Shown here in pieces: positions 2,226 to 26,721 of a DNA stretch of 30,621 bases. Made by a program: the position numbers and the translations under genes. Location: positions 1 through 30,621 of the IMG/VR virus record IMGVR_UViG_3300021960_011401. The stretch is one strand, 5' to 3'. Position 1 is the first letter of the stretch, and each line of letters starts with the position of its first letter. The notes under the pieces were generated by a model. That model made no database searches. It had not been told where the DNA came from and saw only the letters and a list, made by a program, of their open reading frames with translations. The DNA comes from a virus.

Positions 2226-2993
2226 TTAGACCTTCAAGGCTTTGTCCCAGATAACTAATTGTAATCTAGGGCTGAAATTAAAATGATGCTCCTTAGCTAA
2301 TTCAGCTACCATACCACTAACCTCAGAGTGCTCTTGTCTACTACCACAACAAGGCATTAACCAAACTCTCCCAGTAGGTATATCAAACTTTTCTACATAC
2401 TTAGATAGAACCTCTTCCATATCTGATTGATTTTGTATAACAAACTTAAAGCCAGAACCCATGTCAGCATGCCAAGATAATACGTCTGGAATATATCTCT
2501 TACCGAGTGGATCTCCATTCGATGATAACTTAGGAGAGGTTGTGAATGTAGCAGAAACGTTTTTATTAACAAGTCTAGCGCTGGGTTGAATAGTTGCGTT
2601 AGTTTCAAAGTCAATCCTAGGAAGCCAGCCCCAAGTTAACATTAAATAATCAAAGAACCTAACAAGCTTAGCCTGCTGAATAAGAGGCTCACCACCAGTA
2701 ACTTTTAGTATAGCACCATTATATAAATGATCCTTATAACCAGAGTCCTCCATTAACTTAACAATCTCTTCAAATGACATTTTATTCTTAACACTCCAAG
2801 AAATAAAACTATCACACCCATGAGGGGAATCTGCTGATGCAAATCCTTTACACGTGAGATTACACATGGAGAGTCTCATAAATACAGAAGGCTGGCCTAT
2901 GAACTCTCCTTCGCCTTCAATAGTATAAAATACCTTATCATCAGATAAGAATAAATCATGTGAACCTGTTATATCTTTACTTTCTTCACTCAT
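2226..2993 (-). CDS. queE: 7-carboxy-7-deazaguanine synthase (radical SAM)
   Basis: QueE rearranges 6-carboxytetrahydropterin to 7-carboxy-7-deazaguanine using a [4Fe-4S] cluster and SAM; it is the second dedicated step to preQ0. The 255-residue protein has the QueE N-terminal VFYTIEGEGEFIGQPSVFMRL block (residues 21-41, split by no gaps), a cysteine cluster C44-X3-C48-X11-C60, and the SAM-binding TGGEP at 99-103. The cysteine spacing differs from canonical radical SAM CX3CX2C by an insertion of about 9 residues before the third Cys. It lies downstream of queD and a microprotein gene on the same strand. A TATAAT box 6 nt before the ATG suggests it can also be transcribed alone, leaderless. 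Confidence 0.93.
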   Translation of the reverse strand: MSEESKDITGSHDLFLSDDKVFYTIEGEGEFIGQPSVFMRLSMCNLTCKGFASADSPHGCDSFISWSVKNKMSFEEIVKLMEDSGYKDHLYNGAILKVTGGEPLIQQAKLVRFFDYLMLTWGWLPRIDFETNATIQPSARLVNKNVSATFTTSPKLSSNGDPLGKRYIPDVLSWHADMGSGFKFVIQNQSDMEEVLSKYVEKFDIPTGRVWLMPCCGSRQEHSEVSGMVAELAKEHHFNFSPRLQLVIWDKALKV

Positions 2994-3127: not shown

Positions 3128-3571
3128 TTAACCTCTAGATATAACCACACTATTCTTTTCGTGCTCCCAGATTTCAACTTGCTCAACCCAGCAACGCGAT
3201 TCAGTCATTTGTTCTATATAATGACTACCTACCTCATAGCACCACTCAGCGATACGCTCAATACCAGTACCATAAGGCATAACTCTAAGATCACAAATAC
3301 CTTTATCATGCATCATTCTAAATAGATCCAGCTCAGGATCATCTGCTGCAATACAAGTAGTATGATCAAATTGTTGTTCAAGTTTATTCTTAAGACCCTT
3401 TAAACCACCAAAATCGACTACCCAATGATTCTCATCAAGTTTATTACACCCAAAAGTAAATTTACCGTAAAGTTTATAACCATGTATGAGCTTACAGTGA
3501 CTCGTAGCTCTCGGTTGTCTGAAGGCACAGCTGCCTAAATCTAACATTTTTGTACTTTCAAATTTAGCCAT
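3128..3571 (-). CDS. queD: 6-carboxy-5,6,7,8-tetrahydropterin synthase
   Basis: QueD converts dihydroneopterin triphosphate, the FolE product, to 6-carboxytetrahydropterin. The 147-residue T-fold protein has the expected blocks: H25-C26 then H30-G31-Y32 for zinc and the catalytic Cys, FDH at 68-70, and a C-terminal GTGIERIAEW block where E105 should bind the pterin. The usual HGH zinc motif reads HGY; SHCxxxHGY appears to mark a phage/alphaproteobacterial-type subgroup, so another residue (H25 is a candidate) probably completes the site. It is first in a queD-microprotein-queE unit and divergent from folE. A CATAAT box precedes the ATG by 6 nt. Confidence 0.9.
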   Translation of the reverse strand: MAKFESTKMLDLGSCAFRQPRATSHCKLIHGYKLYGKFTFGCNKLDENHWVVDFGGLKGLKNKLEQQFDHTTCIAADDPELDLFRMMHDKGICDLRVMPYGTGIERIAEWCYEVGSHYIEQMTESRCWVEQVEIWEHEKNSVVISRG

Positions 3572-3678: not shown

Positions 3679-4311
3679 ATGAGAAATAAAGAGTTTATTT
3701 TACCTACAGCAAATAGCTCCGCTCCGCGAACGGACGAGGAAAAACAACAAATTATAGATAAAGCAACTATAGCTTATGAAAAATATCTCGATGCTCTTGG
3801 TTTTGATTGGCGTAATGACCCCAATAGCTCAGAAACACCGCGAAGAGTAGCAAAAGCTTTTGTAAATGATCTTGCTGCAGGTTGTTACGATTCACCTCCA
3901 AAAGTAACTACATTTCCGTCAGATGGTTATGATGGTATAGTATCTCAATGTAATATACCTGTAAAGAGTATGTGTAGTCATCATCACCTGGCATTTACCG
4001 GTAAAGCTCATGTAGCCTATATACCTTCTCTAGAAGGTAGAGTTATTGGTTTGAGTAAATTGAATCGTATTGTTGAGTATTATGCTCGCCGTCCACAAAT
4101 CCAGGAAGCAATGACTGTACAGATACATAACGCAATTAGCGAAATATGTGAAAAGAATCAAGGTGTTGCCGTAGTAATCGAGGCATCTCATACATGCGCT
4201 TGTTTGAGAGGTATTAAACACGACGGTTGTATTATGAAGACGAGTAAACTTTCTGGTGACTTCATGGTAGATAGAGGTACTCGACAAGAATTTTACGAGT
4301 TCATTAGATAA
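3679..4311 (+). CDS. folE: GTP cyclohydrolase I
   Basis: FolE opens GTP to dihydroneopterin triphosphate, the entry compound for preQ0 (and folate). The 210-residue protein has the type I zinc site: C99 and H102 in SMCSHHH (residues 97-103; family form SLCEHH) and C173 in HTCACLRG (171-178; family form HxCxxxRG). The segments TPRRVAKAF (53-61) and [20 protein letters not shown] (124-143) are family hallmarks. Length is normal. It is transcribed divergently from queD, separated by 107 bp holding promoters for both, so the two halves of the pathway could be controlled together. Confidence 0.96.
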
Positions 4312-11671: not shown

Positions 11672-12901
11672 ATGCTTTCTCCTTTTAATGTCGTAAGCCG
11701 CAAACCTTTTAGTGGGATAGAGCCCGCTAGTGTGTTAGGTAATATTAACACAAAGCTATACAAGCCAGCTGCGCAACCGAAGCAAAACGATCTCAGTCGG
11801 GTTTTAAATTTCTATGCAGATTACTCTGGCTGTGGTCATTGGCGTATGATCTGGCCTGAGAGTCTGTTAAGAGTTAATCAGTCCTTTAATATATCTGGTG
11901 GTACAGTTATGATCGCTGACCCTAATTTCTACGCAGATGTAAAAGCTATCAGAATTCAAAGACAAGCTACTGAATCTCAAAAGCAGTTCATGTCTTTTGT
12001 GAAAAAAATAAAGGAACAACAAACTGATAAAATGAATATTATTTATGAAATTGATGATATTATTTTTATTGAAGATATTCCTGAGTATAATAAATTTAGA
12101 ACCGCTTTTGATAATCCTAAGGTAAGACAAACCTCTATGGAGATAATGCTCATGGCTGATGAGATGACTGTTACTAATCAGTACATGAAAGATTACTTCA
12201 AAGATAAAACAGGTCACGAGCAAGTGACTGTTATTCCTAATTTTGTTCCTAAGTTTTGGATGGATAGATTCTATGAAAAAACTATAGTATCGAAAAACTA
12301 CGAAGATAATATCAAAAAACCAAGAATATTATATTGTGGTTCTGGAGCTCATTTTGATGTAGATTCGAGAGTAAAACATAGAGATGATTTCGAGCATGTT
12401 AATGATGTAATTAGAAAGACTGTTAATGATTTCCAATGGGTTTTCTTTGGAGGCTATCCTGCTCCGTTGAGGGATCTAATACAATCCGGTAAGATAGAGT
12501 TTCACTCATGGGAAACCCTTATGAGCTATCCGTATAAAATTCAAGCCCTGAAACCTCAATTAATATATGCACCGCTTGCGGATAATAATTTCAATAAAGC
12601 GAAAAGTGATTTGAAATTTATTGAAGGTTGCTGCATGGGCATACCAACAATTTGTCAAGATATTGTTACATACTCTAATGCGTTTTATAAGTTTAAAACA
12701 GGACCTGAGCTTATAGATCAGATTAAGTATCTAACTAAAGATCGTAAGAAGTATATAGCTGAAAGTAAGAAAGCGCGTAGATACGGAGAAACTAGGTGGC
12801 TAGAAGATAATATTTCATTTTACGAAGAACTCTACAAATACCCTTACGGTCACCCAAGCCGAACAAATATTAATAAATTGAACAATATAGTTGTAAAATA
12901 A
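11672..12901 (+). CDS. GT-B (GT4-like) glycosyltransferase
   Basis: A 409-residue predicted cytosolic glycosyltransferase. It starts with a substrate-side region (NFYADYSGCGHWRMIWPE), then YEIDDIIF (about 126-133), VTVIPNFVP at the domain junction, LYCGSG opening the second Rossmann domain, and DLKFIEGCCMGIPTI (about 314-328) where GT4 enzymes bind the nucleotide sugar (ExxxxGxP-like). No membrane segment is present. Similar genes occur among T4-like phage replication genes, but the acceptor is unknown: modified DNA, host glycan or virion protein are all possible. It sits between gp46 and DNA polymerase, which makes a DNA-related acceptor worth considering. Confidence 0.8.
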   Translation: MLSPFNVVSRKPFSGIEPASVLGNINTKLYKPAAQPKQNDLSRVLNFYADYSGCGHWRMIWPESLLRVNQSFNISGGTVMIADPNFYADVKAIRIQRQATESQKQFMSFVKKIKEQQTDKMNIIYEIDDIIFIEDIPEYNKFRTAFDNPKVRQTSMEIMLMADEMTVTNQYMKDYFKDKTGHEQVTVIPNFVPKFWMDRFYEKTIVSKNYEDNIKKPRILYCGSGAHFDVDSRVKHRDDFEHVNDVIRKTVNDFQWVFFGGYPAPLRDLIQSGKIEFHSWETLMSYPYKIQALKPQLIYAPLADNNFNKAKSDLKFIEGCCMGIPTICQDIVTYSNAFYKFKTGPELIDQIKYLTKDRKKYIAESKKARRYGETRWLEDNISFYEELYKYPYGHPSRTNINKLNNIVVK

Positions 12902-15993: not shown

Positions 15994-17100
15994 ATGGATA
16001 TAAATAAACTTGCCAATAAAGCTTTTGCGAGCTTACAGAAGATAAATAGTAATGCGACTACACTCGAAGACAATACATTAAGTAATGTCACGGAGTGGAT
16101 TGATACGGGGTGTCTAGCTTTAAATAGCATTATCTCTGGGTCCCTCTACGGTGGTGTACCTAAAGGTCGTCTTATTATCTTTAGTGGGGAATCTGGCTGT
16201 GGTAAGACTTTTATTCTTAATAAGATTCTTGGCAATGCTCAAAAGATGGGAATGATTCCTATTATCTTTGATACTGAGGTTGCAGTTGATACATCAAGTG
16301 CTGAGGGTGTCGGACTCGATAGTTCGCAAGCTAAGTATGTACCAGTAGATACTGTAGAAGCATGTCGTAATCAGATTATGACATTCCTTGATCAAGTAGA
16401 AGCAGAACCAGAACTACATGGTAAGTTTATTATATCTATCGATTCTTTAGGTAATCTTGCATCAGAAAAAGAACTCAGAGACGCAGAACAAGGGAAGGGT
16501 GCTATGGATATGGGTCTTAGAGCTAAACAGCTTAAATCCATGATGAGAATGATTACATATAAAGCTGCTATAACAGGCACCACTGTTATAGCAAGTAATC
16601 ATACATATGCAGATCCAGGTGCACTACATCCTACCTTAGTTAAAACTCAAGCTGGTGGGTCTGGTCCTATCTATATGGCATCTGTTCTTGTCCAGATGGC
16701 CTCGAAGAAAGAAAAGACTGATTCAAATAATGAAAAAGATGTAGCATTAACTGAGTCGAGAAACTACAGTGGGGTTACTCTTCGTATGTTGACTGTTAAG
16801 AACCGATTTGTTCCTGCTTTTTTGCAGGCTGAAGTTTATCTTAACTTCAAAACAGGTCTTGATAAATATTCTGGTTTGAGAGATGTTGCAGTGTCGCATG
16901 GGGTTATTGAGCAAACTGGAGCTACATTTGTTATGGATGGTAACAAACTAGGTTATTACAAGAACTGGCGTAAGGATGAAGAGTTGTGGAAAACTATTCT
17001 CGAACGGCTTGAAACATCTATTAAAGATAAGTATCGCTATGGTAAAGAGTTGAACGAAACTGCTATTGGTGATATAATCAAAGAAGATGAAGAAGGGTAA
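15994..17100 (+). CDS. uvsX: UvsX RecA-like recombinase
   Basis: A 368-residue RecA-family strand-exchange protein (T4 UvsX about 390). Walker A is GESGCGKT at 65-72, a Glu stands in IIFDTEVAVD (about 88-97), and Walker B is IISIDSLGNLAS (about 147-158). The L2-like segment around ASNHTYADPG and TQAGGSG follows. It works with UvsY, gp32 and gp41 in recombination-dependent replication. The acidic C-terminus (IKEDEEG) is normal for the family. Its last 14 bp overlap queC, which makes queC translation depend on uvsX. Confidence 0.96.
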   Translation: MDINKLANKAFASLQKINSNATTLEDNTLSNVTEWIDTGCLALNSIISGSLYGGVPKGRLIIFSGESGCGKTFILNKILGNAQKMGMIPIIFDTEVAVDTSSAEGVGLDSSQAKYVPVDTVEACRNQIMTFLDQVEAEPELHGKFIISIDSLGNLASEKELRDAEQGKGAMDMGLRAKQLKSMMRMITYKAAITGTTVIASNHTYADPGALHPTLVKTQAGGSGPIYMASVLVQMASKKEKTDSNNEKDVALTESRNYSGVTLRMLTVKNRFVPAFLQAEVYLNFKTGLDKYSGLRDVAVSHGVIEQTGATFVMDGNKLGYYKNWRKDEELWKTILERLETSIKDKYRYGKELNETAIGDIIKEDEEG

Positions 17101-17764
17101 AGCAATTGTTCCAGTAAGTGGAGGTATAGACAGTAGTGTAATACTTGCGTATGCGCGTTCTAAGCATACGCAAGTATTTCCTATAACCTTTGATTATAGT
17201 CAAAGACATATTAAGGAATTGATATGTGCAAAACGTCAATCTGGAGATGATTTTAAGAGGGTAAATCTTTCTTTCTTTAGAGATATTGCTGGTAGTTCAT
17301 CTTTAACTAATGATAATATCGATGTTGCTAAAACTAAGGATGTTCTCGGGGATGCTCAAACAGTGAATTACGTACCCTTTAGAAATCAAATGATGCTGTC
17401 TATTGCGTGCGCTTATGCTGAGAGTATGGAAGCTAGTACCGTATATCACGGTGCTGCGCTAATTGATAGCCAAGCGGGTTACTGGGATGGTAGTATTGAA
17501 TTCTTAGATAGTATTAATAATCTTGTTGCTCTCAATAGGAAGAATAAAATCAATATAGAAGCACCTTTAATAGATAAAACTAAGAGAGAGATAATTCTCA
17601 TGGGTGCTGAGTTAGATGTCGATTATAGTAAGACATGGACTTGTTATGAAGGTAAGCGTAAGGCATGTGGTTACTGTACTGCTTGTAGTTCTCGTATAAA
17701 AGGATTTTTAGATGCAGGAATCAAGGACCCCTTGCTATATGAGCGTAATGATATACCATGGTAA
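17087..17764 (+). CDS. queC: 7-cyano-7-deazaguanine (preQ0) synthase
   Basis: QueC uses ATP and ammonia to convert 7-carboxy-7-deazaguanine to preQ0. The 225-residue protein has the PP-loop SGGIDSS (11-17) and a four-Cys zinc site C186-X7-C194-X2-C197-X2-C200, all as in the family. It is separated from queD/queE by 14 kb and placed inside the replication operon, overlapping uvsX by 14 bp. A class II amidotransferase gene starts 6 nt after its stop; in archaea those two domains are fused (Gat-QueC) and make archaeosine. A 15-bp perfect hairpin lies early in the coding region. Confidence 0.95.
   Translation: MKKGKAIVPVSGGIDSSVILAYARSKHTQVFPITFDYSQRHIKELICAKRQSGDDFKRVNLSFFRDIAGSSSLTNDNIDVAKTKDVLGDAQTVNYVPFRNQMMLSIACAYAESMEASTVYHGAALIDSQAGYWDGSIEFLDSINNLVALNRKNKINIEAPLIDKTKREIILMGAELDVDYSKTWTCYEGKRKACGYCTACSSRIKGFLDAGIKDPLLYERNDIPW
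17140..17178 (+). repeat. 15-bp perfect inverted repeat (hairpin) inside queC
   Basis: The arms at 17140-17154 and 17164-17178 (AATACTTGCGTATGC and its complement) are separated by a 9-nt loop. It begins about 53 nt after the queC ATG. In RNA it would be a strong stem, unusual in this AT-rich genome. There is no following U tract, so a simple terminator is unlikely; attenuation of translation or mRNA processing is possible. Confidence 0.7.
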
Positions 17765-17770
17765 TATATT

Positions 17771-18403
17771 ATGTGTGGAATAATTGGATCACCGTATAAA
17801 GAGGCTTTCAAACACTTATTTAAGCAAAACCAAGAGCGTGGTAATTTTGCTTATGGTGTGATTAAGTTTTGCATAAACAATAAAGTTAAGGTAGTTAAGG
17901 ATACTGACTTTGAAAGGGATTTAAAATTTGAAGATGACACAGTCTTTTATTTAGGTCATCTTCAGTCCCCAACTTCTACAAAGAGAGAATTCTCTAAAGA
18001 AACAACTCACCCTTTTGAGTATAAAGGTATGTACCTAGCTCACAATGGTGTATTGAGTAATTTTGAGAAACTAAAAACAAAATATAATAAACACCTACCA
18101 GAGGATACTGTTAATGAAGTTGATAGTAGTATTATTCTACCTATGGTTGATAAGATAGGACTCAAAGCTGCGTTACAGGAGTTAGAGGGAACTTTTGGAT
18201 GTTGGTTATATGATTCTAATACCTCTGAATTATTTGTTTTTAGATCTGGTAGTACTATTTATACTGATGATAGGAATCTAAGTTCTAAGCCTATAAAAAA
18301 CTGGCAACTTCTTGAAGAGGGAGTAATATATAGATTTAACTTTACTAAATTAAAATATGAGCCAATTGAGACGTTTAGAACAAACAACGGATTTTTCATA
18401 TGA
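17771..18403 (+). CDS. Stand-alone class II glutamine amidotransferase (Gat) domain
   Basis: A 210-residue Ntn-hydrolase glutaminase. After Met removal the nucleophile Cys2 of MCGIIG would be N-terminal; NQERGNFAYGV (about 20-30), GHLQSPTS, THPF and the oxyanion LAHNGVLSN (about 92-100) are the class II motifs, followed by EVDSSII and LEGTFGCWLYD. No synthase or ligase domain follows, so it needs a partner. queC lies 6 nt upstream, and Gat-QueC is the archaeosine synthase of Crenarchaeota; the pair could be a split version. Other roles (amino-sugar or asparagine-type chemistry) cannot be excluded. Its last 47 bp overlap the next gene. Confidence 0.85.
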   Translation: MCGIIGSPYKEAFKHLFKQNQERGNFAYGVIKFCINNKVKVVKDTDFERDLKFEDDTVFYLGHLQSPTSTKREFSKETTHPFEYKGMYLAHNGVLSNFEKLKTKYNKHLPEDTVNEVDSSIILPMVDKIGLKAALQELEGTFGCWLYDSNTSELFVFRSGSTIYTDDRNLSSKPIKNWQLLEEGVIYRFNFTKLKYEPIETFRTNNGFFI

Positions 18404-19073
18404 TCCTGATAAAGTTTTAGTTGTAAGTACCACCACTAAAACGAAGTATGATCAAACTTTACTATATGAAAGTTTAAAAGACCAGTCTTACACAGGTAAG
18501 TTTATTATTCATGAGAATAATAAAAAAGGATTGTGTGAGGTATACAATCAGTATATAACTAATGAATGGGATTGTGTAATTTTTGCTCATGATGATATAT
18601 ACATAGATAGTTGTAATTTCGTAGAAAAAATATATGATGGCTTCCGGTATGATAAGTTTGACATATGCGGTCTTGCTGGTGGGTCGAACTTAAAAATACA
18701 AAAACCTCTTCTATGGCATTTAATGACAGCCCGAGAAACTCAATCTGGAGTTGTAAGTCACGGCACAAAAAATAAATACATACCTTCAGTATTTGGTCAT
18801 ATAGGTAAAGAAACTGTCCTTCTTGATGGGCTTTTTCTAGCTTTCCAACCTAAAACTCTTATTGAAAAAAATATTAAATTCGATGAGAAGATAAAGGGGT
18901 TTCATCATTATGACTTAAAGTTCTCTGTTGATTGTTTTCAGGCAGGTCTTATACTAGGTACAGTACCGATACATGTAATACATAACTCTCCGGGTTTGAG
19001 AGATTTTACAAAAGAGTATCGAGATTCAGAAGAATATTTCTACAACGAACTAAAAAGATATGCCAGAGAATAA
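18357..19073 (+). CDS. GT-A (GT2-like) glycosyltransferase
   Basis: A 238-residue glycosyltransferase, GT2-like. The core starts at about residue 20 (VLVVSTTTKTKYD); AHDDIYI (about 77-83) is the DxD-like metal/sugar-nucleotide motif, LLDGLFLAF (about 156-164) and FDEKIKGFHHYDLKFS (about 175-190) are typical of the Glyco_tranf_2_5-like group. The 47-bp overlap with the amidotransferase gene is large; no later Met precedes the domain, so 18357 (or the TTG at 18366) must be the start. Acceptor unknown. It lies between the preQ0/amidotransferase pair and the gp41 helicase. Confidence 0.75.
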   Translation: MSQLRRLEQTTDFSYDPDKVLVVSTTTKTKYDQTLLYESLKDQSYTGKFIIHENNKKGLCEVYNQYITNEWDCVIFAHDDIYIDSCNFVEKIYDGFRYDKFDICGLAGGSNLKIQKPLLWHLMTARETQSGVVSHGTKNKYIPSVFGHIGKETVLLDGLFLAFQPKTLIEKNIKFDEKIKGFHHYDLKFSVDCFQAGLILGTVPIHVIHNSPGLRDFTKEYRDSEEYFYNELKRYARE

Positions 19074-24579: not shown

Positions 24580-24829
24580 TTTTAATGATATACTCAACGC
24601 AGTAGAAAAAAATAATACTGCTGGGTTAGATATCTTACAAAACTATATAGGAGAATATCTCAAAGCATATTTCGTTATAGGATACGATAATAACGGGGAT
24701 AGCGTTCTTATTGTTAACGGGAAAACTGAGCAAGATTTTGATTCTATAGAATGTCTTGTTAATAGGTTCGGACATATGAAATTTCAGCCTAGTGATAAAG
24801 AACAAAAAAACGACGGGGATGAACAGTAA
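24563..24829 (+). CDS. Hypothetical protein (88 aa)
   Basis: Small acidic protein with an N-terminal helical part (FNDILNAVEKNNTAGLDILQNYIGEYLKAYF) and a beta-like part (VIGYDNNGDSVLIVNGK), ending in a disordered charged tail. It overlaps the preceding gene by 17 bp and the following one by 11 bp. No similarity recognised. T4 gp33-like and gp62-like identities were considered and not supported. Confidence 0.6.
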   Translation: MANKSDFNDILNAVEKNNTAGLDILQNYIGEYLKAYFVIGYDNNGDSVLIVNGKTEQDFDSIECLVNRFGHMKFQPSDKEQKNDGDEQ

Positions 24830-25706
24830 AATATTAATTATCGGTAATGGGTTTATAGGCTCTAAGCTTATATCTCATTTAAAAACAAATAAAAATTTTA
24901 CATGTCTGCAAATTAGCGGGTTAAAATATTTTCATCCTGCTTCTTTTAACAATTCATTGCAGTCAGCATTTGGTGATTTTTTACCTAACTATGTAATTAA
25001 TTGCGTAGGTTATACAGGTACACCAAATGTTGATGGATGTGAAGCAAATAAAGCTGACACTTTTCACCTTAATGTAACAGTACCTACTATAATTGCTAAC
25101 CTTTGTGCAGATTATAGCGCGCGTTTTATCAATATTAGTTCTGGTTGCGTGTTTGATGGGTATGAGAAAGAATACAAAGAAGAAGATGAACCTAATTACG
25201 GTCTTACTAATCCAGATGCAAGTTGGTATAGCAAGACAAAACATGCATGTGAGTTGGCACTTAGAAATTATACTAATGCCTTTAATTTTCGTATTAGAAT
25301 GCCAGTTACCGGTAATATTTCTGAATCTAAGAATTACTTAACAAAAATTCTCAAATATAATAACTTAATTAATTTCACTAATTCTAAGACTGTTGTTAAT
25401 GATTTACTTAATTTCATTGTAAACTTTCTTGATAGAGATAGTTATACCGGTGGATTTCCACCTGGTAATTATAATATTGTCAACCCAGAACCACTTAATA
25501 CAAAACAGATTGTAGATATACTCGATGATTTCAATCTATGGAACCCTAATTGGAATTGGATTGATTTAGATGAACTATATAAGAGTACATCATGCAAAAG
25601 ATCAAACTGCGTGTTAGACCCGTCATACGCAATGAAAACAACAGGGTTTATAATACCCACAGAAGAGACATCAATTATTAAAGCTCTGCAGACACCAAAT
25701 GATTGA
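24819..25706 (+). CDS. NAD(P)-dependent sugar-nucleotide reductase (RmlD-like extended SDR)
   Basis: I start at 24819 (MNSKILIIGNG) because the Rossmann fold then begins at once; the alternative 24792 adds nine residues of overlap. GNGFIGS (about 8-14) is the GxGxxG nucleotide motif, ISSGCVFDG (about 105-113) the active-site Ser/Thr strand, and YSKTKHACE (about 137-145) the YxxxK catalytic pair. FRIRMPVTGN and NPEPLNTKQIVDIL are typical of dTDP-4-dehydrorhamnose reductase-like SDRs. It overlaps the dehydratase-like gene by 8 bp, implying sequential reactions on one sugar nucleotide. The 295-residue length is normal. Exact substrate is not certain. Confidence 0.8.
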   Translation: MNSKILIIGNGFIGSKLISHLKTNKNFTCLQISGLKYFHPASFNNSLQSAFGDFLPNYVINCVGYTGTPNVDGCEANKADTFHLNVTVPTIIANLCADYSARFINISSGCVFDGYEKEYKEEDEPNYGLTNPDASWYSKTKHACELALRNYTNAFNFRIRMPVTGNISESKNYLTKILKYNNLINFTNSKTVVNDLLNFIVNFLDRDSYTGGFPPGNYNIVNPEPLNTKQIVDILDDFNLWNPNWNWIDLDELYKSTSCKRSNCVLDPSYAMKTTGFIIPTEETSIIKALQTPND

Positions 25707-26721
25707 AAATAAAAAAATTCTTGTAACAGGAGGCCTTGGATTCATTGGCTCTCATTTCACTGAGTTACTACTCGATAAATGCAATGACTGTATAATTGAC
25801 ATTATAGATATCAAAGACTATTGTGTTAGTAATAAGACAGAGGATCTATTAATTGACAAGGCCGAGGACTCAACTAACCATCTTGACATTATTCAGGACA
25901 GTATTGTAGATTGTGTGCTTGTGGAAGAATATGATTATATAATCAACTTCGCAGCGCAATCTCATGTTGATAGGAGCATTGAAGAGGGTAATGATTTTGT
26001 AATGTCTAATGTTGTCGGTACTCATAATCTACTCAATCAATTCAATGGTACGAGGTTTATACAGATTGGTACAGACGAGGTATACGGTTCATTAAATTAC
26101 AACGAAAGACCATCTCTAGAGTCAGATTTATTAAAGCCTAGCTCTGTATATTCATCAAGTAAAGCAGCGGCAGATTTAATAGCTTTATCTTTCTATACAA
26201 CCCATAAAAAAGATGTTGTAGTAACAAGATGTTGTAATAACTTCGGCCCTAGACAGTACCCAGAGAAACTAATTCCGGTTGCAATTAATAAACTTCTTTC
26301 AGAAAAGAAAGTACCTATCTATGGTGATGGCACAAATACTAGACAATGGATATTCGTTAAAGATCATTGTCAGCAAGTTTATGACACCATGTTATATGGT
26401 AACGCAGGAGAGATATATAATATAGAGCCTAGTTATAATAAAAATAGCGAAATTAATAATAATAATATTATACGCAAGATTATAGCGTCTGTAAAACTAA
26501 ACAAAAAATATGACGACAATATCGAGTATGTTGAAGACCGGAAAGGTCATGATTTGAGATATTCTCTCAACGGAAAAAAACTAAAATACTTAATTGAGCG
26601 TTCCAGACAACACCAGTATGAATTACCTTATTTAGAGAAAACTATTGAAAGGGATTTAGATTATACTATAATGTGGTATAAGAAAAATAAAAACTGGTGG
26701 AATGAGAACATTACTGATTGA
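25699..26721 (+). CDS. dTDP-glucose 4,6-dehydratase-like SDR (RmlB-like)
   Basis: A 340-residue extended SDR. Motifs: VTGGLGFIGSHF (9-20) for NAD, INFAAQSHVDRSIE (about 83-96) as in RmlB, TDEVYGSL (about 124-131, matching the RmlB TDEVYG active-site segment), YSSSKAAAD (about 150-158) with the catalytic Tyr and Lys, and TRCCNNFGPRQYPEKLIP. These fit dTDP-glucose 4,6-dehydratase, which makes dTDP-4-keto-6-deoxyglucose, feeding the RmlD-like enzyme just upstream. No RmlA or RmlC is in the window, so the phage may tap host dTDP-glucose. The end overlaps the exonuclease gene by 20 bp. Confidence 0.85.
   Translation: MIENKKILVTGGLGFIGSHFTELLLDKCNDCIIDIIDIKDYCVSNKTEDLLIDKAEDSTNHLDIIQDSIVDCVLVEEYDYIINFAAQSHVDRSIEEGNDFVMSNVVGTHNLLNQFNGTRFIQIGTDEVYGSLNYNERPSLESDLLKPSSVYSSSKAAADLIALSFYTTHKKDVVVTRCCNNFGPRQYPEKLIPVAINKLLSEKKVPIYGDGTNTRQWIFVKDHCQQVYDTMLYGNAGEIYNIEPSYNKNSEINNNNIIRKIIASVKLNKKYDDNIEYVEDRKGHDLRYSLNGKKLKYLIERSRQHQYELPYLEKTIERDLDYTIMWYKKNKNWWNENITD

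Follow-up and report, generated by a model that had tools for sequence, protein, structure and literature searches.

A stand-alone glutaminase beside QueC in a marine T4-like virus and its relatives: probable partners in glutamine-dependent preQ0 synthesis

The queC-Gat locus

We analysed a 30,621-nt viral fragment from IMG/VR, hereafter the window, which belongs to a marine T4-like virus whose DNA polymerase is ~29% identical to those of T4-like phages, a deep divergence. In amongst its UvsX/RecA, T4-type DNA polymerase, helicase and clamp genes lie queC and, directly behind it, the gene for a stand-alone class II glutaminase (Gat). FolE, QueD, QueE and QueC are all encoded in the window (4/4), and the relevant features are as follows:

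2226-2993, minus strand: queE, radical-SAM 7-carboxy-7-deazaguanine synthase (PHROG phrog_2076, E=3e-42)
3128-3571, minus strand: queD, 6-carboxytetrahydropterin synthase (PHROG phrog_2389, E=2e-34)
3679-4311, plus strand: folE, GTP cyclohydrolase I (PF01227, E=4e-49)
17087-17764, plus strand: queC, preQ0 (7-cyano-7-deazaguanine) synthase subunit, 225 aa (PF06508, E=1e-54, above the curated cut-off)
17771-18403, plus strand: Gat, stand-alone class II glutaminase, 210 aa (GATase_6, PF13522, E=6e-14)
18357-19073, plus strand: GT2-type glycosyltransferase, sharing 47 nt with the 3' end of Gat (PF13712, E=2e-11)

queC comes first on the shared plus strand, and exactly 6 nt (17765-17770) separate it from Gat. 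This arrangement, with a single-domain Gat carrying Cys2 and HNG, had been predicted earlier and is confirmed by the PF06508 and PF13522 matches and by residues H91-N92-G93, as are the nearby folE, queD and queE by the PF01227 and PHROG matches; the viral 7-deazaguanine DNA-modification pathway that the original prediction proposed is supported for the queC-Gat pair. Membership of the GT2 gene in this system is uncertain, since only the window's clade keeps it behind Gat. Positions 11672-12901, between a gp46-like gene and the DNA polymerase, hold another glycosyltransferase (phrog_7162), and two sugar-nucleotide genes, judged by eye to be of the reductase/epimerase and the 4,6-dehydratase type, occupy 24792-26721 in the replication region. 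The sister record G007 (127 kb; mostly 55-90% amino-acid identity to the window over syntenic genes) encodes a nucleotidyltransferase as well as additional sugar genes, and has an unrelated folE2 (PF02649; 63350-64384) at the place of the window's folE.

Judged against the canonical signature (PMC13329287), the window QueC carries the full set, SGGIDS, YSQRHIKE, VPFRN and TCYEGKRKACGYCTAC, for SGGxDS, YxQxHxxE, VPxRN, the Zn-region tyrosine and the four Zn-binding cysteines. At the mouth of the pocket it has YWDG where canonical QueC has YPDC, the essential tyrosine being retained and the proline and cysteine changed. Gat-paired QueCs have YWD or YHD at this motif, including those recovered by the Gat scan described below, whilst YPD is found in canonical QueC and in almost all fused ones.

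The AlphaFold2 model of the window Gat (pLDDT 92.8, pTM 0.89) finds its best Foldseek match in the glutaminase domain of GlmS (1xff, E=2e-10), followed by GFAT, PurF, ASNS and EgtC, and Gat is confidently predicted to be a glutaminase-fold protein. It carries Cys2, GHLQSPT, HNG and Asp118. The class II (Ntn) marks, an N-terminal cysteine and HNG, are invariant across an alignment of 28 relatives; Cys2 is present in 56/57 stand-alone Gats, the remaining row being incomplete at that point, and the positions that are invariant or nearly so comprise Cys2, N20, R23, H63, P67, T68, H80, P81, H91-N92-G93, D118, G140 and R158. The motif HxQ[AS]PT is found in 56 of the 57 stand-alone Gats. In GlmS, Arg73 holds the carboxylate of glutamine, and an arginine stands at this position in GlmS, PurF, AsnB and fused Gat-QueC; in the window Gat, as in 56/57 family members, Gln65 replaces this carboxylate-anchoring residue. 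Judging by this change, glutamine may be a weaker substrate for Gat, or none at all.

Distribution and ancestry of the split pair

A search with the Gat of Vibrio 2.275.O recovered stand-alone family members in 51 phage records, 49 of them Vibrio and pf16 twice, which include the KVP40 group, nt-1, pf16 and 2.275.O. queC touches Gat in most of these rows and adjoins it in every context examined; Gat itself is mostly labelled 'hypothetical protein' in phage records, as in nt-1 (NC_021529), where it occupies 240098-240706 and adjoins queC. Two scans of viral contigs returned ~100 distinct Gat loci. In nearly all those with enough upstream sequence, queC lies upstream on the same strand, at a distance that ranges from a small overlap to ~2 kb. 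Gaps of -8 to +15 nt are frequent, and the linkage holds in Schizotequatrovirus, in pf16, in 2.275.O and in environmental viruses alike. Some of the QueCs were recovered with a pattern built on split QueCs, which biases that half of the survey towards the split kind, whilst the Gat scan is free of that bias. Near copies abound among these phages, and independent lineages are few: ~5 with QueF and 2 without. In close relatives of the window, Gat stands behind queC at 75-100% identity, and this conservation, together with that across the ~100 contigs, tells us that the pairing is not chance. The split form, which the original prediction had thought unusual, is in fact the normal one in this virus group, and its expectation that relatives would keep Gat beside queC is borne out in both phage records and environmental contigs. 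One genome-contig scan with degenerate patterns, a weak test, returned no cellular stand-alone member of the family.

The pairs of Schizotequatrovirus and Mylasvirus (KVP40, Va3, nt-1), of pf16 and of 2.275.O share with the window the two families, their order and a gap of ~-1 to +32 nt, and have FolE and QueF or ArcS around them; their Gats are ~30% identical to that of the window and, unlike it, have no glycosyltransferase behind them. The gene order is FolE-DpdA2-QueF-QueC-Gat in Va3, FolE-[~458 aa]-QueF-QueC-Gat in phi-Grn1 and F86, FolE-[440 aa]-QueF-QueC-Gat in pf16 (the homology of the 440-aa gene to DpdA2 being putative), QueF-YhhQ-QueC-Gat-FolE in 2.275.O, and QueD-DUF5591-FolE-DpdA2-QueC-Gat in nt-1, with CZ01 alike. 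KVP40-like phages and nt-1 have DpdA2 (pf16 has its 440-aa gene in this place), in contrast to the immuto-type DpdA of the window's group. Amongst environmental contigs, L125 holds DpdA, formyltransferase, kinase, QueF, QueC, Gat and QueD in one run, and the G021 lineage (L131-L149) has FolE-DpdA-QueC-Gat in a row.

Fused Gat-QueC proteins, known from Crenarchaeota and from phages 9g, Vid5 and PaMx25, likewise combine class II glutaminase and QueC modules in 7-deazaguanine synthesis, and share Cys2, HNG, SGG.DS and the Zn-Cys4 with the split pair. They differ from it in being a single polypeptide with Gat first, in their RAEPTTE motif, in a QueC motif that is mostly AYPDN, and in forming clades of their own. 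In our comparison set of archaeal, bacterial and phage proteins, RAEPTTE was present in 22/22 fused Gats examined (6 phage, 15 archaeal, 1 bacterial); it is absent from the window Gat. In the QueC tree, which includes few canonical rows, and these on long branches, 17/17 fused domains lay across one branch (SH-aLRT 100, length 2.5) from the canonical and split QueCs; the split QueCs formed one group (support 85), and the window QueC fell outside the fused clade. The Gat tree recovered separate stand-alone (100/98) and fused (98/92) clades, and a common root of the two to the exclusion of GlmS, PurF and AsnB was neither rejected (p-AU 0.31) nor shown. Given the separate clades and different Gat motifs, the split pair is thus no Gat-QueC that came apart. 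Fission of a fused protein, considered as its origin, is ruled out by the QueC tree. The fused archaeosine synthase is recognised as one polypeptide with an N-terminal Gat, and the window has two ORFs with QueC first.

QueF, DpdA and the predicted base

No QueF was found in the window, and PF01702 gave no match to DpdA in its 30.6 kb; this profile also misses the known DpdA2 of nt-1, and its result is thus uninformative. G007 carries, ~46 kb from queC, a cassette of QueF, an AAA_28 kinase, a formyltransferase and a TGT-like protein. The last of these is 40-44% identical to the 'DNA guanine transglycosylase' of phage immuto and to a Campylobacter CP220-group protein, and its model has a TGT fold (AF2 pLDDT 92.4; Foldseek TGT E=9e-9). 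The same four-gene order, QueF-kinase-formyltransferase-DpdA, is also found in immuto and in 24/26 environmental contigs of one scan. G003 (44 kb) matches the window along its length at 91% nucleotide identity, and G039 (26 kb), which shares an overlap of 3.87 kb (95.3%) with the end of G003, runs on into the cassette; these are different contigs from different samples, and the link is one between near relatives, not one genome. A DpdA-type transglycosylase, which the original prediction had suggested seeking elsewhere in the genome, is present in the window's group, in both G007 and G039. With the DpdA2 of nt-1 as query, matches came from nt-1 and Va3 only, among the records searched, and a search of environmental records for ArcS/DUF5591 rose above the cut-off only in the nt-1 control.

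ESKSxKL[YF] is the NADPH motif of QueF nitrile reductases, and it was present, along with the catalytic Cys/Asp and HFHEE, in 8/8 QueFs compared, including those of G007 and L049. An amidating QueF-L, as a candidate identity for the relatives' QueF, is ruled out by this motif. QueF accompanies the stand-alone Gat in 48/51 phage records (46 Vibrio and pf16 twice, the 46 being the 49 Vibrio Gat records minus nt-1, with two records, and CZ01), as matched among the records listed, mostly by name and for the remainder by count or region. Unlike most split-pair phages, no fused Gat-QueC phage appears in the QueF list among the matches listed.

The DNA of 6E35.1A, which carries the split Gat and queC as well as QueF, contains dPreQ1 at 15% of dG (PMC12028318), and that of nt-1 contains, per million nt, 232 dPreQ0, 72 dADG and 44 dG+ (PMC6884629). 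In these two split-pair phages with published chemistry, then, dG+ is not reported (6E35.1A) or trace (nt-1), and the split pair goes with dPreQ1 or dPreQ0. The levels of modified bases in nt-1 are very low, and its Gat may be inactive. The fused Gat-QueC of 9g, with its DpdA, yields dG+ at ~9-18% of G in E. coli plasmids (PMC6884629). The amidotransferases listed by Hutinet 2019 are only ArcS, QueF-L/QueF and the fused Gat, and ArcS is the only one named for nt-1 (PMC6884629); another candidate for the origin of the trace dG+ there is the nt-1 Gat. The original reading, that the DNA carries dG+, is not supported, 6E35.1A having dPreQ1 and nt-1 mainly dPreQ0.

As the window's group is tied by overlapping relatives to the QueF-kinase-formyltransferase-DpdA cassette, dPreQ1 or its formylated form is likelier than dG+, and preQ1-type rather than archaeosine-type DNA is the probable outcome. 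From the formyltransferase gene, formylated dPreQ1 is predicted for this group. Cui et al., who in 2023 are said to have named DpdA3 and the formyltransferase DpdN, reportedly found that a formyltransferase of this type acts on dPreQ1.

Gat as a partner of QueC

We posit that Gat and QueC are the two subunits of a glutamine-dependent preQ0 synthase, a reading to which we give a probability of about 0.6. FolE, QueD and QueE would make CDG (7-carboxy-7-deazaguanine); Gat, as a class II (Ntn) glutaminase, would free ammonia from glutamine, and QueC, with ATP and this ammonia, would take CDG via the amide to the nitrile preQ0. In this virus group QueF would reduce preQ0 to preQ1, which the TGT-fold DpdA would put into DNA, with formylation probably following, to give dPreQ1 or formyl-dPreQ1. 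The computed basis of this scheme lies in the gene identities, the glutaminase fold, the linkage to queC, an ancestry apart from the fused proteins, and the QueF/DpdA cassette in overlap-linked relatives; from these we infer that Gat binds QueC, that ammonia passes between them, and what the final base of the window's virus would be.

Related N-type ATP pyrophosphatases obtain ammonia from glutaminase domains or subunits. The two-step reaction of QueC takes ammonia (PMC13329287), and QueC can operate with free ammonia. The archaeal two-subunit GMP synthetase likewise joins an N-type ATP pyrophosphatase to an adjoining, separately encoded glutaminase (PMC13329287), although its glutaminase is class I (PF00117) and its substrate XMP, as opposed to class II Ntn and CDG here. 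The step downstream of preQ0 varies: most lineages have QueF, nt-1 and CZ01 have ArcS/DUF5591, and in the G021 lineage neither QueF nor ArcS was found. QueC is the partner that Gat keeps throughout, and the pairing is independent of that step. Flavobacterium phage immuto_2-6A has DpdA - formyltransferase - kinase - QueF in an order identical to that of G007, but its 160 kb genome, unlike the window, lacks a Gat of this family, and its QueC has the canonical YPDC. That this cassette runs without Gat alongside YPDC, whilst Gat-paired QueCs have YWD or YHD, suggests that Gat serves QueC itself.

Could the pair instead be a split archaeosine synthase, Gat and QueC converting preQ0 to the archaeosine base such that the DNA carries dG+? 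The fused Gat-QueC of 9g does so (PMC6884629), and nt-1, a split-pair phage, contains trace dG+; the profile of the stand-alone Gat is nearest the fused Gat domain (116, versus 98 for GlmS, from templates that differ in depth), and the absence of any QueF or ArcS match in the G021 lineage leaves room for dG+. We nevertheless consider this unlikely, given that both proteins fall in clades separate from the fused ones, that the active-site motif is HxQ[AS]PT and not RAEPTTE, that QueF occurs in 48/51 split-Gat records and in no fused-Gat phage among the matches listed, and that measured DNA is mainly dPreQ1 (6E35.1A) or dPreQ0 (nt-1), dG+ being the least abundant base found in nt-1, with ArcS an alternative source. 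On these grounds we do not uphold the archaeosine-forming role first proposed for Gat. A related thought, which seems decidedly unlikely, is that the two proteins, Gat altered at its donor site (Arg to Gln) and QueC at its pocket mouth (YPD to YWD/YHD), would together form a virus-specific enzyme for a different nitrogen-bearing 7-deazaguanine, new to phage DNA and going beyond ammonia supply.

The neighbouring glycosyltransferase raises another question. Nearly all contigs of the window's clade (L163, L225 and others) have Gat overlapping or abutting the GT2 gene, the two staying adjacent even with queC 1-2 kb away, and sugar-nucleotide genes are present in the window and G007; Gat might partner this glycosyltransferase, as in the synthesis or transfer of an amino sugar, with the closeness of queC incidental. 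However, in KVP40-like phages, pf16, 2.275.O and L121-L149 no glycosyltransferase follows Gat, which still stands directly behind queC, and Gat lacks a sugar-isomerase domain, such that we regard this as very unlikely. We give similarly long odds to Gat acting in the 7-deazaguanine pathway, in the manner of EgtC, as an Ntn amidohydrolase by which an amide or gamma-glutamyl group is removed, rather than as an ammonia donor. EgtC, a stand-alone Ntn hydrolase, is indeed among the structural matches, and the Arg-to-Gln change at the glutamine anchor would suggest a changed substrate; yet we know of no gamma-glutamyl or amide intermediate in this pathway that needs hydrolysis, dADG is only minor in nt-1, and the linkage is to QueC, the amide-forming step. 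Our confidence in the glutamine-dependent preQ0 synthase is itself held at its present level by two features that it does not account for, the glutamine in place of arginine at the anchor and, in the window's clade, the conservation of Gat jointly with a glycosyltransferase; counting against it, too, QueC lies 1-2 kb off in some clade members while Gat stays with the glycosyltransferase gene.

In the literature searched, we found no description of the split QueC-Gat pair, for which priority is not claimable, nor of a dedicated ammonia donor for QueC. If the glutamine-dependent preQ0 synthase is real, the conserved Gat beside QueC, also in the well-studied KVP40 and nt-1 with their 'hypothetical' label for it, would be the ammonia donor of QueC, and the origin of the trace dG+ in nt-1 would become testable. 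A Gat next to QueC would then no longer be read as pointing to archaeosine DNA. From the dPreQ1-type cassette, a specific modified base is to be expected in the marine group of the window. The G021-type lineage (L131-L149) offers the best natural test of dG+ formation by the pair, and a dG+ role could still hold there.

In a sister clade, a GMP reductase/IMP dehydrogenase-like gene separates queC from Gat, at 4665-5621 in L163 and in ~12 other contigs, and perhaps adjusts the supply of guanine nucleotides.
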